This document shows positions 3,601 through 27,854 of a stretch of DNA of 64,000 nt, piece after piece. The notes beneath the pieces were generated by a model, which was not told the DNA's origin, did no database searches, and saw only the letters and a list, made by a program, of their open reading frames with translations. Positions within the stretch are counted from its first letter, which is position 1. Each line of letters begins with the position of its first letter. The DNA comes from Longimicrobiaceae bacterium (GTDB taxonomy: Bacteria; Gemmatimonadota; Gemmatimonadetes; Longimicrobiales; Longimicrobiaceae), in contig DASVBS010000006.1 in NCBI GenBank assembly GCA_036375715.1, positions 1 through 64,000 of the forward strand, given 5' to 3'. The position numbers and the translations under genes are program-made.

Positions 3601-4839
3601 GTGCACGCGAAAAAGGTGGTGCTGGCATACAGCGGTGGTCTCGACACTGCCTGCATTCTCAAGGTGCTGCAGCAGCGCGGCTACGAGGTGATCGCCTACG
3701 TCGCCGACGTGGGTCAGCAGGAGGATTTCGACGAGATCGCCGATCGCGCCCGCCGGACCGGCGCGTCCAAGGTGTACGTGGAGAACCTGCAGCGGGAGTT
3801 CGTCACCGACTTCATCTTCCCGGCCATCGCCGGCAACGCCGTCTACGAGAACCGCTACCTGCTGGGGACGTCGCTGGCGCGCCCGGTGATCGCCAAGAAG
3901 CAGGTGGAGATCGCACTGGAGGAGGACGCCTCTCACGTGGCGCACGGTGCCACCGGGAAGGGGAACGACCAGGTCCGCTTCGAGCTTGCCTACGCGGCGC
4001 TCGCCCCGCACCTGCAGGTCATCTCGCTCTGGAAGGACCGCGAGTTCCTGCAGCAGTTCCGGGGTCGAAGCGACCTGCTCGCCTTCGCCCGACAGCACGA
4101 CATCCCGGTCGAGGCCACCGCCGAGAAGCCATACTCCAGCGACGAGAATCTCATGCACCGCTCCTATGAGGCGGGGCTGCTGGAGGATCCCTTCGCTCCG
4201 CCTCCCGCGGACATGTTCAAGCTCACGGTCGCGCCGGAGGACGCCCCCGACGTCCCTGAACACATCGAGATCGAGTTCAAGGACGCGACGCCGGTGCGGG
4301 TCGAGAATCTCGACGACGGCACGGTCTATATCGATCCGCTGGATCTCTTCGTCTATCTGAACAGGCTGGGAGGGCGCCACGGCATCGGCCGCGTCGACAT
4401 GGTCGAGAACCGCTTCGTGGGGATCAAATCCCGCGGCGTCTACGAGACTCCGGGAGGCACGATCCTGCACTACGCCCTGCGCGACCTGGAAGGCGTGGCC
4501 ATGGACCGCGAAGTGTTGCGCCTGCGGGATATGCTTTCGCCGCGCTTCGCCGAGATCATCTACAACGGCTTCTGGTTCTCGCCGGAGATGGACTTCATCG
4601 CGGCCGCGTTCTCCCAGGCGGAACGGCTGATCGACGGGCGGGTGCGGGTCAAGCTCTACAAGGGGAACGTGATCTGCGAAGGGCGGGAGTCACCCAGCTC
4701 GCTCTACGATCGCGAGCTCTCGTCGATGGACGTGGCGGGCGGCTACGATCAGGAAGACGCTCGGGGCTTCATTCGCATCAACGCACTGCGGCTTCGCGCG
4801 CACAAGCTGATTCTCCGCAAGACGGGGCAGGACGAGTAG
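3601..4839 (+). CDS. argG: Argininosuccinate synthase, eukaryote-like form
   Basis: A 412-residue enzyme that joins citrulline and aspartate using ATP to make argininosuccinate. The ATP-binding motif AYSGGLDT is at residues 9-16; LLGTSLARP and [15 protein letters not shown] follow. From memory of the human enzyme ASS1, the sequence is closer to that form than to typical bacterial ArgG: note [27 protein letters not shown] and the ending [12 protein letters not shown] second, bacterial-type synthase is encoded in the arginine operon at 30490, so this copy is a paralogue standing alone. It might act in citrulline recycling or be the functional copy under other conditions; the sequence does not say. 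The GTG at 3601 has GGAG 8 nt upstream. Confidence 0.93.
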
Positions 4840-10969: not shown

Positions 10970-11608
10970 CTAGCGGCTTCCCTTCAGCCAGCGCAGCAGC
11001 TCGAGCAACGAAGGAAGAGCAACAAGGAAGCCGACGCTTCGCAGGCCGAGGTTTCCGTAGGCCGCTTGCAGGGTGAAGCGGTCGGTGCGCAGGGCTTCCG
11101 GGAGCCTCCGAAGGCTGGGGATGAGGCGAGGTAGGCGGGCGTACGCGGCCGTCTGGTGGGGAAACTTGTTTTGCAGGTACGCTTCCTCGTCCAGCATGGT
11201 GGGGTAGTAGACGAGCACCACCATCGCAGTGAACAGGACGGCTCCCAGCAGCGGATCGCCCACGGTGATGAAGAGGGCGAGAAACATCGCCAGGCTACCC
11301 GAGTAGAGCGGATGCCGCACCATCCGGTAGATCCCGGTGCTGGTGATCTCCTGGTTCTTCCGGAGATTTCCCGATCCCCACACGCGGATGCCGACCCCCG
11401 CGATCATCAGGACCCACGGCAGCAGAAAGGCCGGATCCAGACGTGGGTGGATGAGGTCGGATGGCATCGCCGGCCCGAACCACGCGAGCACGAGGACGGC
11501 CGCCACGAAGATGGCCGTCAGGAACGGACGCCGGCGACGAATCCAGCGGATGACTTTTCCCGGAGCGCCGTGATCCCGACGCTGTGACGCGGCCACCCCG
11601 GCTGTCAA
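10970..11608 (-). CDS. Isoprenylcysteine carboxyl methyltransferase-like membrane methyltransferase
   Basis: A ~212-residue membrane protein of the ICMT/PEMT superfamily. It has about four hydrophobic helices and the signature TSTGIYRMVRHPLYSG (residues ~90-105), which binds S-adenosylmethionine in this family, followed later by DEEAYLQNKFP. Substrates of bacterial members are mostly unknown (lipids or small molecules). The likely TTG start at 11608 overlaps the dnaN stop by 3 bp, which implies translational coupling; a GTG at 11596 is an alternative. It ends the dnaA-dnaN transcription unit. Confidence 0.75.
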   Translation of the reverse strand: MTAGVAASQRRDHGAPGKVIRWIRRRRPFLTAIFVAAVLVLAWFGPAMPSDLIHPRLDPAFLLPWVLMIAGVGIRVWGSGNLRKNQEITSTGIYRMVRHPLYSGSLAMFLALFITVGDPLLGAVLFTAMVVLVYYPTMLDEEAYLQNKFPHQTAAYARLPRLIPSLRRLPEALRTDRFTLQAAYGNLGLRSVGFLVALPSLLELLRWLKGSR

Positions 11609-12711
11609 TCGAGGAGCCGCAGGGGCATGACGAGGCAGAGGAAGTCCGGGGTGTCCTCGTTGCCGATGGGCTCCATCGTTGCGGCCCGCTCCGGCGCCTT
11701 GAAGCTCAGTTTCACCTCGTCCGTGGGCATGTACCGGAGCAGCTCGAGCAGATAGTTCGCATTGAAGCCGATCTCCAGCGGAGCGCCCTCGTACTCCACC
11801 GCGAGCTCCTCCGAGGCCTCACCGAGATCGGGCGTCTGTACGGAGAATTTGAGCATCGGCCCACCCAGGGAGAGGCGGATCCGGTGGGTCTGATCGGAGG
11901 CGACGATGGCCATTCGCCGGATCGCCGCGTTGAGCGCGGCCTTGTCGGCGATCAGGATCTTATCGTTGTCCTTGGGGATGACCTGCTCGTAGTTCGGATA
12001 GGGGCCTTCGATCAGCCGGGTGTAGATCTGTACCCCGTTGCCCCGGAAGCCCAGGTGGTTCTCGGAGCGGCCCACCTCCACCTCGTCTCCGGGCGCAAAC
12101 AGCTTCTGCACCTGCGCCAGCGCGCGCGGATGCACGATCAGATCAGCGGTGACCCCCGATCCCTGCCGAGGGACGGTCATCTTGGCGAGGCGATGGCCGT
12201 TGGTGGCGACCATCCGCATCTCCCCCTCGCGCAGCTCCCACAACACGCCGTTCAGAATCGGCCGGGTCTCCTCGGTCGACACAGCGAAGGCCACATGAGA
12301 GATCAGCTGGTTCAGCTCGGCCCCCGTGAGCTGCCAGCTGGTGTCGAAGCTGACGCTCGGGAAAGCCGGGAACTCGTCCTTGGGCAACCCGTTCAGGCGG
12401 AAGCGGGTACGCCCGCTGTTCAGGGTCACGGCGTCACCCTGGGTAGCCACGACGACCGGGGAGGGTGGGAGCTCTCGGGCGATCTCCTGGAGCTTGCGAG
12501 CGGGTGCGGTGATCGCCCCCACCTCCTCGACCTCTGCCGGCACACGAACCGATACGGCCGTATCCAGGTCGGTCCCGCTGAAGCGCACGCCGTCCCCCTC
12601 GGTCTCGACGAGGAGATTCGACAGAACCGGCAGCGTCGTCCGGGTCGGAATGCTCCCCACGACGGCCGCCAGCCCCTCCTGTAGCTTCTCCCGCGTAATC
12701 GTGAATCTCAT
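11605..12711 (-). CDS. dnaN: DNA polymerase III sliding clamp (beta subunit)
   Basis: A 368-residue sliding clamp; two copies form a ring around DNA and tether DNA polymerase III and repair proteins. Family features are the start MRFTITREKLQEGLAAV, TTLPVLSNLLVE in domain I, GHRLAKMTV in domain II and the C-terminal VMPLRLLD, part of the partner-binding cleft. I chose the ATG at 12711 because clamps start MxFTI; an upstream extension of 16 codons is not conserved-looking. It lies 353 bp after dnaA on the same strand, the usual order at bacterial origins. Confidence 0.97.
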   Translation of the reverse strand: MRFTITREKLQEGLAAVVGSIPTRTTLPVLSNLLVETEGDGVRFSGTDLDTAVSVRVPAEVEEVGAITAPARKLQEIARELPPSPVVVATQGDAVTLNSGRTRFRLNGLPKDEFPAFPSVSFDTSWQLTGAELNQLISHVAFAVSTEETRPILNGVLWELREGEMRMVATNGHRLAKMTVPRQGSGVTADLIVHPRALAQVQKLFAPGDEVEVGRSENHLGFRGNGVQIYTRLIEGPYPNYEQVIPKDNDKILIADKAALNAAIRRMAIVASDQTHRIRLSLGGPMLKFSVQTPDLGEASEELAVEYEGAPLEIGFNANYLLELLRYMPTDEVKLSFKAPERAATMEPIGNEDTPDFLCLVMPLRLLD

Positions 12712-13064
12712 CTCGGTCTCGTAAGCGTCCGGTAACGGGACCACCGTCCGGTGGGCCAAGGATCATCCCGGCGACGGACGTGCACCCGAGGGGGTCCACG
12801 CCGCGATTCCACAGGGAACTACACCAGCACCACCCTGATTGATTTACCTCGTAACAGTAGTAGAGGACGTGGAAAGGTGGAAAGCCGCACTGACATCTCC
12901 GTAACCGCTTGCGGCTCACCCACCTGTGCCGCTGCTTGACGCTGTGGAAACGGTGCGGAAAGCGGCTTCGTTACTCCACCGCCAACTTCAGCTTCCCACA
13001 GTCACGAAATCTCTCCACATCAATCCCCACAATTTCCACTCCGTTATCCACCGCCGTCTCGCGC
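12712..13064. other. dnaA-dnaN intergenic region with DnaA-box-like sequences (candidate oriC element)
   Basis: A 353-bp non-coding gap, unusually long for this window. Box-like 9-mers include TTATCCACC (13044-13052, one mismatch to TTATCCACA), GATTCCACA (12805-12813), CTTCCCACA (12992-13000), CTCTCCACA (13011-13019), ATCCCCACA (13023-13031), and on the minus strand GTTTCCACA (12943-12951) and two tandem CTTTCCAC units (12869-12884). A less GC-rich patch lies at 12835-12865. These are degenerate matches, so origin function is an inference. The region must also hold any separate dnaN promoter. Confidence 0.5.
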
Positions 13065-14483
13065 TCAGCCCCGGCCGCCGGTGAGCTGGCGTCGCAGCTG
13101 CTCCACCCGCGCGGCTAGCTCGGGATTCGTCTGGAGCTCCTCCTCCACCTTGGTGATGGAATGGATCACGGTGGAATGGTCCCGGCCCCCGAACAGGCGT
13201 CCGATCTCCACCAATGAGAGGTCGAACAGCTCCTTGATCAGGTACATGGCCACCTGGCGGGGCACGGTGAGCGTCTTCGTCCGCTTCGGCGATTGCAGCG
13301 CCTCCGGAGAGACCTTCCACTCCTCGGCCACCTTGCGGCGGACGAGGTCGGGACTCACCTGCTCGGCGTCCTCGGGAGCAGCGCGCAGCACGCCCCCGAG
13401 CACCTCGCGCGCGAGGTCGAGAGTGATCTCCCGGCGAGTGAGCGAGGAGTAGGCGAGCAGTTTGATCACGGCGCCCTCGATCTCGCGGACGGACGAGGTG
13501 CAGTGCCGCGCGATGAACTCGAGCACCTCCTCCATCGAGGAGATCTCGAGGCCGTCCTCCTCCACCCGATTCCGCAGGATCGCCACCCGGGTCTCGAAGT
13601 CGGGCGGCTTGATGTCTGCCACCATCCCCCACTCGAAGCGGGAGATCAGCCGATCCTCGAGACCGATCTCCTTGGGGGGACGATCGGAGGTCAGGACGAT
13701 CTGCCGCTGCGCGTCGTAGAGGGCGTTGAAGGTGTGGAAGAATTCCTCCTGCGTCCTCTCCTTCCCTTCGAGGAACTGGATGTCGTCCACCAGCAGGAGA
13801 TCGATCTGCCGGTACGCGCGCCGAAACTCGGCCATCGTCCCTTCCTGGATCGCGTTCACCAGCTCGTTGGTGAAGCGTTCCGAGGAGATGTAGACGACAC
13901 GCTTCTCGGGCGATTTGGCCGCGATCGCGTGCCCGATGGCGTGCATCAGGTGCGTCTTGCCGAGCCCCACGCCGCCATACAGGAAGAGCGGGTTGTACAT
14001 GCGGGCCGGCGCCTCCGCCACGGCGTGCGCGGTGGCTGCGGCCAATTGATTGTTGTTCCCGACCACGAAGCGGTCGAAGGTGTACCGCTCGTTGAGGGGG
14101 GTGCCGACGCGGGTGTGGCTGCTCGACGTCGAAACCTTTACGAAAGGCGCTTGCGGCGTACGGGGAGCCGAGCTTGCTGGCGGTGCTGCGGCGTCGAGGC
14201 CCATGGGCAGTGGAAGCTGCTGAAGGTTCGCCTCGCCGTCGTGCCGCACGGAGAGCCGGAGTCTGCGGCCGAACAGCTTCTCGGAGAGGGAGGAGAGGAG
14301 CTCGGCGTATTTGTCCTCGACCCAATCCGCTGCAAAGGGATTGGGAGTGGCGATGATCAGAGTGTCTTGCGAGAAGGCGACCGCCTCGGTCGGGGCGAGC
14401 CAGGTCCGGTAGGCTTGCTCGGGCAGCGTCGCCCTGGCCTCGTCCAGGATCTGCGACCAGACCTCGGCTGCGGTCAACTCCAT
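13065..14483 (-). CDS. dnaA: Chromosomal replication initiator DnaA
   Basis: A 472-residue AAA+ initiator that binds DnaA boxes and opens the origin. Domain I is at residues ~1-85, a Pro/Ala/Ser linker at ~90-140, and the ATPase domain starts at LNERYTFDRFVVGNNN. Visible motifs are Walker A GGVGLGKTH and Walker B LLLVDDIQFL. The C-terminal DNA-binding domain IV carries the signature GRDHSTVIHSITKVE. Length is normal. It is the first gene of a minus-strand unit with dnaN. Its promoter region carries a DnaA-box-like sequence, consistent with autoregulation. Confidence 0.98.
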   Translation of the reverse strand: MELTAAEVWSQILDEARATLPEQAYRTWLAPTEAVAFSQDTLIIATPNPFAADWVEDKYAELLSSLSEKLFGRRLRLSVRHDGEANLQQLPLPMGLDAAAPPASSAPRTPQAPFVKVSTSSSHTRVGTPLNERYTFDRFVVGNNNQLAAATAHAVAEAPARMYNPLFLYGGVGLGKTHLMHAIGHAIAAKSPEKRVVYISSERFTNELVNAIQEGTMAEFRRAYRQIDLLLVDDIQFLEGKERTQEEFFHTFNALYDAQRQIVLTSDRPPKEIGLEDRLISRFEWGMVADIKPPDFETRVAILRNRVEEDGLEISSMEEVLEFIARHCTSSVREIEGAVIKLLAYSSLTRREITLDLAREVLGGVLRAAPEDAEQVSPDLVRRKVAEEWKVSPEALQSPKRTKTLTVPRQVAMYLIKELFDLSLVEIGRLFGGRDHSTVIHSITKVEEELQTNPELAARVEQLRRQLTGGRG

Positions 14484-21719: not shown

Positions 21720-21735
21720 GGTTTCACGTGGAACC
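21720..21735. promoter_or_regulatory. parS centromere site 1
   Basis: GGTTTCACGTGGAACC is a 16-bp palindrome-like site matching the ParB-binding consensus TGTTTCACGTGGAACA at all 14 core positions. It lies 67 bp before mnmG and 2.1 kb before parA. ParB loads here and spreads to mark the origin region for segregation. Confidence 0.85.
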
Positions 21736-23699: not shown

Positions 23700-23715
23700 A
23701 GTTCCACGTGAAACG
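23700..23715. promoter_or_regulatory. parS centromere site 2
   Basis: AGTTCCACGTGAAACG contains GTTCCACGTGAAAC, an exact match to the 14-bp core of the Bacillus-type parS consensus. It lies 2 bp after the mnmG stop and 78 bp before parA, so ParB bound here could also affect parAB expression. Confidence 0.88.
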
Positions 23716-23793
23716 TCGCCACGGTTTCTGGACGCGGCTGGATCCGCCGGGTTATATTGACTGCCCCGTCGACACCCCAGCCGTGGAGTGACG

Positions 23794-24611
<818 letters not shown>

Positions 24612-24615
<4 letters not shown>

Positions 24616-25547
24616 ACGCACGACGCACGCCGGCTGCCGACGCGCCCGCGGAGTCGGCGCGCCGGCGCACTCGGCTCGGCAAGGGTCTGGGTGCGCTGCT
24701 GGGGGAGTATCTGCCCGACGAGCCGGACGCAAGTGACAGCGGCTACCGGGTGGTGCCGGTTGCCCGCATCGCCACCAACCCCTACCAGCCACGCCGCCAG
24801 TTCACCGAAGAGGAGCTGACGGAACTGGAGCACTCCATCCGCGAAAACGGGCTCCTGCAGCCTCTCGTGGTACGCCCGGCGTCCTCCGCAGCGCCCGCCG
24901 GCGCGGAGTGGGAGCTGGTGGCCGGAGAGCGCCGTTGGCGGGCCGTGCGGCGCCTCGGCTGGACCGAGGTGCCGGTGGTGGTCCGGGAGATCGACGATCG
25001 TACGCTCCTCGTTCTGGCGATCGTCGAGAACGTCCAGCGCGCGGACCTGTCCCCGCTCGAGGAGGCGGAGGCGTACCGGCGGCTCATCGAGGAGTTCGGC
25101 TACACCCAGAAGGAGGTAGCCGCGAGCGTCGGTCGTGAGCGCTCGACGGTGACCAACCTGCTACGACTGCTCCAGCTCCCGGCCAGCATCCAGAGCATGG
25201 TCTCGAGTGGCGAGCTGTCGATGGGTCATGCTCGCGCCCTGCTCGGCATCGCCGACCCCCGTCAGATGGCCGATCTGGCCCGCCGCGTGGTCCGGGAGGG
25301 GCTCTCCGTCCGGGCGATCGAGGAGGAAGTGCGGCGCCGGCAGGCTCCTCCCGCTCGCAAGCCCCGACCGGAGCGCCCCGGAGGCGCCCACCTACGACAG
25401 ATCGAGAGCGAGCTGCAGCGAGCCCTCGGCACGGCGGTACGGATTCGCCTCGGTAAGGGGAACAGCGGCAGAGTGGAGATTCCGTTCTATTCGACCGAAG
25501 ATTTCGAGAGGGTAACGGAGCTGCTCCTCGGAAGCAGCGAGTCCTAG
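24612..25547 (+). CDS. parB: Chromosome partitioning protein ParB/Spo0J
   Basis: A 311-residue ParB CTPase/DNA-binding protein. The N-terminal [15 protein letters not shown] ends a short basic leader that likely contacts ParA. The CTP-binding core contains [20 protein letters not shown] and [36 protein letters not shown] precedes the helix-turn-helix ([20 protein letters not shown]). The C-terminal ~60 residues form the dimerisation domain. It should bind the two parS sites flanking mnmG. Translation is coupled to parA. Confidence 0.96.
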
Positions 25548-25666: not shown

Positions 25667-26467
25667 ATGGCGCGAGACGAACGCCGCATGACCTTCATCG
25701 TGGTTCCCCACGGTGGCCGCGACCTCAACACCCGCTCGTTCGAGGTCTCCTACCGGCGTCTCCGCGTGGTGGGCATTCTCCTCCTCTTGGCTGTCGTCGT
25801 CTGGGTGGTATCGGTCGGTTCGTGGCTTTTTGTTTCAGCTCGGGCGGCACGCGTGCCGATGCTGGAAAGAGAGATCGCTCGCTTGCAGGAGGAGAACGCG
25901 CAGGTCCGGCAGCTGGCGGAGGCGTTGCGGCGCCTCGAGGCACAGTACGAACAGGTCAGGGAAATGCTTGGGGCCGATCGCGCCGGCGAGCCAGGCAGCA
26001 TCTGGCTCCCGCGCGCCGGTGAAAGCGGTGCCAAGTCGGCGGCAGAGGCCCCGGCCGATTCAGCCGAGGCCATGCTGCCCACCGCCTGGCCGCTCGCCGG
26101 GCGCGGCTTCGTGACGCGCGAGCACCTGGCCGAGATCCCCGGCGAGCACCCCGGCATCGACATCGCCGTCGCCGAAGGGACCTACGTCCGCGCGGCGGGC
26201 GGCGGAGTAGTCGAAGAAGCGGGATCCGACGACATCTACGGCAACTTCATCCGCATCCGGCACGCGGGCGGTTACGAGTCGGTCTACGGCCACGCCTCCG
26301 AGCTGTTCGTCGCTCCGGCGGACACCGTGCGCCGGAACGAGGTCATCGCGCTGAGCGGAAACACCGGCCGATCGACCGCGCCGCATCTCCACTTCGAGAT
26401 CTGGAGGAATGGCGAGCCGATCGATCCGCGAACCCGGGTCAACCAGCCGCCGGGCGCGGCCCCCTGA
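25667..26467 (+). CDS. M23/LytM-family peptidase with N-terminal membrane anchor
   Basis: A 266-residue protein: a membrane helix (residues ~35-57), a coiled coil (~65-100, LEREIARLQEENAQVRQLAE), a low-complexity spacer, and a LytM domain (~150-255). The zinc ligands are visible in EHPGIDIA, YGHAS and PHLHFEIW, so it should be an active endopeptidase cutting peptidoglycan cross-links, or an amidase activator. The bactofilin gene starts 26 bp downstream. Bactofilin-M23 pairs control local wall remodelling and cell shape in other bacteria, so the two probably work together. Confidence 0.92.
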   Translation: MARDERRMTFIVVPHGGRDLNTRSFEVSYRRLRVVGILLLLAVVVWVVSVGSWLFVSARAARVPMLEREIARLQEENAQVRQLAEALRRLEAQYEQVREMLGADRAGEPGSIWLPRAGESGAKSAAEAPADSAEAMLPTAWPLAGRGFVTREHLAEIPGEHPGIDIAVAEGTYVRAAGGGVVEEAGSDDIYGNFIRIRHAGGYESVYGHASELFVAPADTVRRNEVIALSGNTGRSTAPHLHFEIWRNGEPIDPRTRVNQPPGAAP

Positions 26468-26493: not shown

Positions 26494-27000
26494 ATGGCGG
26501 TCTTCAACAAGTCGGACGGCAAGCCGCGTGACCGGTCCCTTCCTCTTTCGCGCAACGGTGCGGGGGAGGGCGCGATCTCCATCATCGGGCCGGGAATGCG
26601 CATTGATGGGAATGTCGACACCGATGGGACGGTGCGCATCGAGGGCATGGTGACGGGAACCGTGAGGGCGGCGAAGGCCGTGGTGCTCGGGCAGAGCGGT
26701 GAGGTGAGCGGCGACATCTTCGCGCACGACGCAATGATCGGCGGGCGCGTGAAGGGGCGTGTCATCGCCGACAACCGGCTCGAGCTGCAGGCGTCCTGCG
26801 TCGTCGAAGGCGAGATCCAGGCACCGGCTTTCCACCTTCATCTGGAGGAGGGCGCCACCTTCAACGGCCAGATCCAGATGAAGAACGAGGACGCCGCGCA
26901 AAGCGCCACCGCAACGCCGCTGCGCCCGGAATCGAAGTCATCAGCCGACGAAAGCGGGGACGAGCAGCGCTTGCAGCCCAAGTTTTCCACAATCGGCTAA
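26494..27000 (+). CDS. Bactofilin
   Basis: A 168-residue polymer-forming cytoskeletal protein. The bactofilin core (residues ~28-130) is a right-handed beta-helix with repeated short strands: SIIGPGMRIDGNVDTDGTV, IEGMVTGTVRAAKAVVLGQS, GEVSGDIFAHDAMIGG and VVEGEIQAPAFHLH. The flexible N- and C-terminal tails are typical. It follows a LytM peptidase gene, the usual functional partner, and lies close to parAB; in some bacteria bactofilins also position ParABS. A DnaA-box-like 9-mer overlaps its last codons. Confidence 0.94.
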   Translation: MAVFNKSDGKPRDRSLPLSRNGAGEGAISIIGPGMRIDGNVDTDGTVRIEGMVTGTVRAAKAVVLGQSGEVSGDIFAHDAMIGGRVKGRVIADNRLELQASCVVEGEIQAPAFHLHLEEGATFNGQIQMKNEDAAQSATATPLRPESKSSADESGDEQRLQPKFSTIG

Positions 27001-27071
27001 GTTATTGCGGCGTCGGCTGTTGCAGATTTTCCACAGAGATTTCCTGGAGTTTTCCACCGGATTTTCCCACA
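26983..27071 (+). promoter_or_regulatory. Cluster of four DnaA-box-like sequences (candidate origin element)
   Basis: TTTTCCACA at 26983-26991 and again at 27027-27035, TTTTCCACC at 27050-27058, and TTTTCCCACA at 27062-27071, all on the plus strand within 89 bp. TTTTCCACA is one mismatch from the TTATCCACA consensus and is the box type known in cyanobacteria. The same 9-mer occurs in the dnaA promoter here. The cluster overlaps the bactofilin 3-prime end and the gap before the Nif3-family gene, in a locally less GC-rich stretch. Confidence 0.6.
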
Positions 27072-27074
27072 ACC

Positions 27075-27854
27075 GTGAGTAAATCCCGCGGACCACAGTC
27101 AGTCGATCTGGCAGAGATCTGCGCGCATCTCGACGAGTACCTGCGCATTTCGGAAGTGCCCGACTATCCGACGGCGCACAACGGCCTGCAGGTGGCGAAT
27201 TCGGGGCGGGTGGCGCGCCTGGCGGTGGCGGTGGATGCGGTTCAGGCGACCGTGGATCGCGCGGCCGAAGCCGGTGCCGACCTGCTGATCGTGCACCACG
27301 GTCTCTTCTGGGACCCGGATCCGCGGCTGACGGATCGGCGCTACCGGAGAATCCGCCGCTTGCTCGAAGCGGATGTGGCCGTCTACAGCGCACACTTACC
27401 TCTGGATGTGCACCCGGAGGTGGGGAACAACGCGGTTCTGGCGCGGGAGATCGGGGTGGAGCTAGAGGGGAGCTTCGGGGAGTACCGCGGCTTCCCGATC
27501 GGGGTCCGCGGCCGTCTAGAGATCGACAGGGAGGAGCTCGTCGAGCGCCTCGAGCAACGTCTGGCTGGCTCGGTGCGGGTGATCGCGGCGGGGCCGGAAA
27601 GGGTGTCGCAGATCGCGGTGATCACCGGCGGCGCGGCCGGGGAGGTGAAGCGGGCAAGAGAGGCGGGGATCGACACCTTCATCACCGGTGAGGCCGCCCA
27701 TCACAACTACTTCGACGCCGAGGAGGCGGGGGTGAATCTCATCCTCGGCGGCCATTACGCGACGGAGACGTGGGGCGTCCGGGCACTCGCCCACCATCTC
27801 GAGGAACGATTCGGACTCCCCTGGACGTTCATCGAGCACCCCACCGGACTCTGA
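27075..27854 (+). CDS. Nif3-like dinuclear metal centre protein
   Basis: A 259-residue protein of the NIF3/YbgI family (hexameric ring, two metals per subunit). Metal-binding and family motifs are HNGLQVANSG, LLIVHHGLFW, YSAHLPLDVHPEVGNN and the C-terminal ILGGHYATETWGVRALA. The function is debated; GTP cyclohydrolase-like and iron-related roles have been proposed for relatives. The GTG at 27075 has no ribosome-binding site and follows the DnaA-box cluster directly, so the exact start is uncertain. Confidence 0.88.
   Translation: MSKSRGPQSVDLAEICAHLDEYLRISEVPDYPTAHNGLQVANSGRVARLAVAVDAVQATVDRAAEAGADLLIVHHGLFWDPDPRLTDRRYRRIRRLLEADVAVYSAHLPLDVHPEVGNNAVLAREIGVELEGSFGEYRGFPIGVRGRLEIDREELVERLEQRLAGSVRVIAAGPERVSQIAVITGGAAGEVKRAREAGIDTFITGEAAHHNYFDAEEAGVNLILGGHYATETWGVRALAHHLEERFGLPWTFIEHPTGL

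Follow-up and report, generated by a model that had tools for sequence, protein, structure and literature searches.

The question raised by this locus is what a tight cluster of DnaA boxes does 12.5 kb from dnaA. The window, the whole 64,000-nt stretch of Longimicrobiaceae DNA that was analysed, carries four DnaA-box-like sites between a bactofilin gene and a Nif3-family gene. A first-pass annotation had read these sites in three ways: as a replication origin distant from dnaA, as a locus that titrates DnaA, or as a promoter of the Nif3-family gene under DnaA control. In a search of the open-access literature, no work dealing with replication origins in Gemmatimonadota turned up; papers behind subscription and the DoriC database lay outside that search and may hold a prediction. 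From the comparisons below, we put at about 0.5 the probability that this is an origin-proximal array of DnaA-binding sites, which serves to titrate or regulate DnaA and is not an unwinding origin.

The DnaA-box array and its surroundings

The array and the genes and sites on its side of the region are as follows.

21720..21735, plus strand: parS-like site GGTTTCACGTGGAACC, 3 mismatches, just upstream of mnmG
23700..23715, plus strand: parS-like site AGTTCCACGTGAAACG, 3 mismatches, between mnmG and parA
23788..25547, plus strand: parA-parB, partition genes of the block that the array accompanies
25667..26467, plus strand: M23 peptidase gene, between parB and the bactofilin gene
26494..27000, plus strand: bactofilin gene (PF04519), upstream neighbour of the array
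26983..27071, plus strand: entire head-to-tail DnaA-box array (satellite array), 89 bp, four boxes
26983..26991, plus strand: DnaA box 1, exact TTTTCCACA, within the 3' end of the bactofilin ORF; counterpart kept in the family
27027..27035, plus strand: DnaA box 2, exact TTTTCCACA, 44 bp after box 1 (55 bp in most family members)
27050..27058, plus strand: DnaA box 3, TTTTCCACC, one-change variant, 23 bp after box 2
27063..27071, plus strand: DnaA box 4, TTTCCCACA, one-change variant, 13 bp after box 3
27075..27854, plus strand: Nif3/DUF34 gene, downstream neighbour of the array, GTG start, start codon uncertain

The gene order is dnaN and dnaA, both on the minus strand, then rpmH, rnpA, yidC and mnmE, and further on mnmG, parA, parB, the M23 peptidase gene, the bactofilin gene and Nif3. 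The closest named relatives of the ParB protein carry the label Gemmatimonadetes, and by this kinship the window belongs to Gemmatimonadota. The whole region would be origin-proximal whether the origin is the array or the dnaN-dnaA gap. No RNA family was found in the window.

The four sites are as first described, two exact copies of TTTTCCACA and two one-change variants, all on the plus strand within 89 bp, and the distance of 12.5 kb holds when measured against the dnaA start at 14483. In dinucleotide shuffles of the window the maximum was two sites per 89 bp, reached in 2 of 300 shuffles, as against the four observed. The array had also been said to occupy a low-G+C gap after the bactofilin gene. 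The composition is as claimed, the 100-bp stretch from 26984 (tied with one from 57708) and the 150-bp stretch from 26971 having the lowest G+C of the 64 kb, in large part because of the boxes themselves; the position is not quite, as box 1 lies inside the last bactofilin codons and not in the gap. The 4.37-Mb assembly, in 87 contigs, contains exact TTTTCCACA five times; three of the five copies are in the window, two in the array and one upstream of dnaA. Two copies of TTNTCCAC that face the same way and are no more than about 30 bp apart are found at just two places in the assembly, the array and contig C65. The C65 pair (G000 contig C65:7984-8003, locus L238) lies about 80 bp upstream of a gene that, to judge from its translation, is Cdc48/VAT-type-AAA-like.

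Conservation within the family

The family set consisted of 21 genomes, about 107 Mb of DNA. Nif3 was matched at E <= 1e-60 in 16 of the 21, and a box cluster was found upstream in all 16 of the regions read. The gap had been singled out for comparison among relatives, and that comparison found both the DnaA boxes and their geometry kept across the family. Start-to-start spacing is 55-23-13 bp in ten family genomes (genera g2, g72, g76 and g3); among these ten, pairwise identity is 89% in the box columns versus 42% elsewhere. The spacing departs from this pattern in the window (44-23-13), in G029 (52-23-13) and in G010 (57-21-13), while G163 and G150 lack one box with the total length kept, and G165 has a shorter variant. 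The distances 13, 23, 44 and 55 come close to whole helical turns plus two, numbers which suggest that the boxes lie on one face of the DNA, with exceptions.

Fourteen of the 21 family genomes have a single copy of the 13-bp pair formed by the last boxes, TTNTCCAC-N5-TTNTCCAC, and the reversed control had no match in the same 21 genomes. Nif3 has a known position in 13 of the 14, and in every one of these the Nif3 match begins 16-40 bp downstream of the pair. The distance to dnaA is also kept, at 10-15 kb from Nif3 in all eight family genomes that have both genes on one contig. We conclude that the array is a real, conserved element. Its boxes are clustered beyond chance outside the unwinding origin, and their arrangement is conserved in relatives, as would be expected of a DBC- or datA-like locus.

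Loci of genus g2 (L259, L265, L268, L270 and others) have in addition a paired inverted repeat, variable and with arms of about 10-13 bp, between boxes 1 and 2. The repeat is terminator-like, with the TTTT of box 2 coming right after it. Since the window has no such hairpin, the structure is given no part in the proposed mechanism.

Conservation beyond the family

Nif3 follows parB, the M23 peptidase gene and the bactofilin gene in most genomes of the class. Clusters of at least two boxes are found in the bactofilin-Nif3 gap in families f1 and f2 and in much of f3. Box clusters also follow the parAB block in f7 (G148 and G008) and f9 (G055), where the next gene, named from its translation, encodes a BMP-type lipoprotein in G148 and G008 and a LOG-like protein in G055. 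Because the clusters in these three genomes precede genes other than Nif3, the cluster tracks the end of the parAB block rather than Nif3 itself.

Many f3 genomes (g5, g11, g24, g17 and others) have no box in the bactofilin-Nif3 gap, with Nif3 still in place. In the clade without the array (g5, g11, g24 and others), exact boxes sit in the dnaN-dnaA gap instead, and the array may accordingly do part of oriC's own work where it is present. Two further layouts were observed. The G053 locus L047, from a genome without the bactofilin-Nif3 array, has five exact TTTTCCACA boxes in about 175 bp of the dnaN-dnaA gap (4321-4495). Several f6 genomes (L062-L066) have a different, AT-rich layout of the bactofilin-Nif3 gap, with ATATCCACA and CATGTGGGAATC-like elements replacing the TTTTCCACA boxes.

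Probable site of the unwinding origin

A BUS consists of a DnaA box, a spacer of at most 16 bp and at least three trios with the middle adenine on the other strand (PMC8287927). We scanned 40 kb of the window for DnaA boxes, with two mismatches or fewer, that have three or more DnaA-trios no further than 16 bp away. The features on the dnaA side of the region are as follows.

11605..12759, minus strand: dnaN
12760..13064: dnaN-dnaA intergenic gap, likely oriC
12852..12884, minus strand: candidate oriC unwinding core (BUS), with boxes CTTTCCACC (12876-12884) and CTTTCCACG (12868-12876) in tandem, a 4-bp spacer, TCCT, and DnaA-trios CTACTACTGTTA (12852-12863)
13065..14483, minus strand: dnaA
14545..14553, minus strand: single exact TTTTCCACA box, 62 bp upstream of the dnaA start, of a kind that tends to co-occur with the satellite array

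The motif at 12852-12884 had the best BUS score in the scan, 10 versus 5 for the next match, and fits the BUS type of oriC; in contrast, the array at 26983-27071 has boxes without trios, no trio run being found in the window's bactofilin-Nif3 gap (BUS as in PMC8287927). When 25 loci containing the dnaN-dnaA gap were compared, the gap held the top trio-motif match in 20, the window among them. Trios of the CTACTACTA type are present in the dnaN-dnaA gap in families f1, f2, f3, f4, f7 and f9, and in some genomes (G006, G029, G002 and G065) the BUS scan did not find the trio motif. In the bactofilin-Nif3 gap of other genomes the scan gave weak trio matches, none of them convincing. Because trios are conserved at dnaN-dnaA and there are no convincing ones at bactofilin-Nif3, the unwinding origin is placed at dnaN-dnaA. 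Replication most likely starts in that gap, with the tandem boxes and DnaA-trios as the predicted unwinding core. The first-pass annotation had found the array cleaner than the dnaN-dnaA gap; this is so for canonical boxes, the gap having no exact box and three with one mismatch, but the trio unwinding motif in the gap had been overlooked. In G055, where 430 kb separate dnaA from parB, the two features keep to their usual neighbours, the trios to dnaA (2617373) and the box cluster to the end of the bactofilin gene (9.9 kb).

GC skew was set aside as a means of locating the origin, given noisy profiles with several minima even when the two loci are 430 kb apart, as in G055. In the window, cumulative skew is low at 9-18 kb, at dnaA, and peaks locally at 27-28 kb, a profile that gene direction may drive and in which 12 kb is below the resolution. 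The G055 profile, sampled and then computed for a contiguous 920 kb, is noisy and has three minima, at 2.59 Mb (dnaA), at 2.76 Mb and at 0-0.05 Mb (the parB side), the deepest being the one near parB and not the one at dnaA. For G148, skew over 400 kb has weak minima near both dnaA and the array, which are 111 kb from each other in the G148-like lineage, and is also noisy.

Relation between the array and boxes near dnaA

In a comparison of 45 genomes, the dnaN-dnaA gap had exact boxes in 18 of the 25 without the array as against 6 of the 20 with it (raw Fisher p = 0.007). A box upstream of dnaA, where autoregulation is possible, was found in 17 of 21 genomes with the array versus 3 of 26 without it (raw p = 3e-6). 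Both relations were examined by an independent-pairs test on a tree of DnaA, ParB, MnmG and ParA. The reciprocity of the array and the dnaN-dnaA boxes was unsupported, with two pairs in the same direction and two in the opposite direction. For the array and the box upstream of dnaA, 3.5 of 7 pairs were in the same direction and none in the opposite one, with a median p of 0.125, which is not significant, and the co-occurrence after tree control is suggestive. Both box-placement relations are leads, not results.

Proposed function of the array

Among the three readings first put forward, a DnaA-titrating locus fits best: a conserved element based on DnaA boxes is well supported, and the function assigned to it is our inference. 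The array would act as follows. Standing at the end of the parAB-M23-bactofilin block, 12.5 kb from oriC, it would bind several DnaA molecules head to tail. Because it is beside oriC, it would be copied very soon after initiation, and a strong DnaA sink would thereby be doubled at once. With the sink doubled, less DnaA would be free and the next initiation would be held back, a role already proposed for DnaA-box clusters close to oriC elsewhere. For the array, we predict from the arrangement of its boxes that it is bound by DnaA, in a cooperative manner, and that it acts on initiation by titration or regulation. Against the role as a sink, two exact boxes and two variants make a small capacity. 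The lack of the array in the clade that has exact boxes at dnaN-dnaA instead also speaks against the main reading.

Transcriptional control fits as well, given that in the family the array is always just upstream of nif3. DnaA bound there might repress or activate transcription of nif3, or of whichever gene comes next, and so couple that gene to the replication cycle; the boxes point toward Nif3, and the last of them keep their 16-40 bp distance from it in 13 of 13 genomes. The clusters at the same place before the BMP-type lipoprotein gene (G148 and G008) and the LOG-like gene (G055) argue against a promoter dedicated to nif3, however, as does the g5 clade, a whole clade in which Nif3 is in place without any box. 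The cluster is thus neither confined to positions before nif3 nor an invariable companion of it. No sigma-70-like promoter was found at the locus, which is a weak argument in this phylum. Of the earlier proposal of a DnaA-controlled Nif3 promoter, the placement directly upstream in the family stands, and we regard the promoter itself as unlikely. Somewhat more doubtful is a split origin, in which the array would be the DnaA-loading half and the dnaN-dnaA trios the unwinding half, joined by looping over 12 kb, in effect a drawn-out form of the B. subtilis or H. pylori bipartite origin. The tendency of exact boxes to occupy either the array or the dnaN-dnaA gap, the co-occurrence of the array with the box upstream of dnaA, where no independent pair opposes, and the 10-15 kb distance kept across the family are all consistent with such an arrangement, but the tree-controlled tests are not significant, and in G055 the halves would stand 430 kb apart. 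The bipartite oriC of B. subtilis and of Helicobacter pylori has two DnaA-box regions near dnaA, one of them with the unwinding element, whereas here the two regions are separated by 12.5 kb and about ten genes. In B. subtilis the two clusters are separated by dnaA alone (PMC5295017). We hold it rather improbable that Gemmatimonadota have a split origin, with a fixed-geometry loading array at parAB-bactofilin 10-15 kb from a trio element and with strong boxes moved between the two places in evolution. If they did, the partition locus and initiator loading would be physically coupled.

The least probable reading makes the array the origin of the chromosome and reduces the dnaN-dnaA trio motif to a relic or minor site. 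It would account for canonical boxes stronger than those of the dnaN-dnaA gap, for the lowest-G+C 100-bp stretch of the window, for parS-like sites and parAB next door, and for the deepest skew minimum of G055 near parB. The array has no DnaA-trios, however, and apart from its boxes no AT-rich stretch clearly suited to unwinding, while trios are conserved at dnaN-dnaA in the six families named above; further, the skew of the window is low at dnaA and at a local maximum near the array, and one of the three G055 minima is at dnaA. The proposal of a stand-alone origin away from dnaA is accordingly disfavoured, since the trio motif is in the dnaN-dnaA gap here and in most relatives and no convincing one is beside the array.

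Comparison with known DnaA-box loci and significance

The datA locus of E. coli is about 1 kb long, as against 89 bp for the array, and the array is likened to datA and the DARS loci in kind, as a DnaA-box locus outside oriC. The E. coli loci datA, DARS1 and DARS2 are non-coding DnaA-box loci that set DnaA availability or nucleotide state, datA having five high-affinity DnaA boxes (PMC5295017). They are reported to work with IHF or Fis (PMC10380432). In B. subtilis, DnaA-box clusters outside oriC can hold DnaA, and loss of all six leads to early initiation (reviewed in PMC5295017). The array resembles these DBCs as a DnaA-box cluster outside oriC, and differs from them as one predicted array of fixed geometry that is tied to the parAB-bactofilin block.

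In sum, the phylum has here a map that can be put to the test, with a trio-type oriC in the dnaN-dnaA gap and, beside parAB-bactofilin, a satellite DnaA array of fixed 55-23-13 geometry. Origin finders that count canonical boxes alone would choose the wrong gap here. The array is a clean natural case for how box spacing encodes DnaA assembly, and it raises the question of why strong boxes stay at oriC in some clades and are 12 kb off in others.
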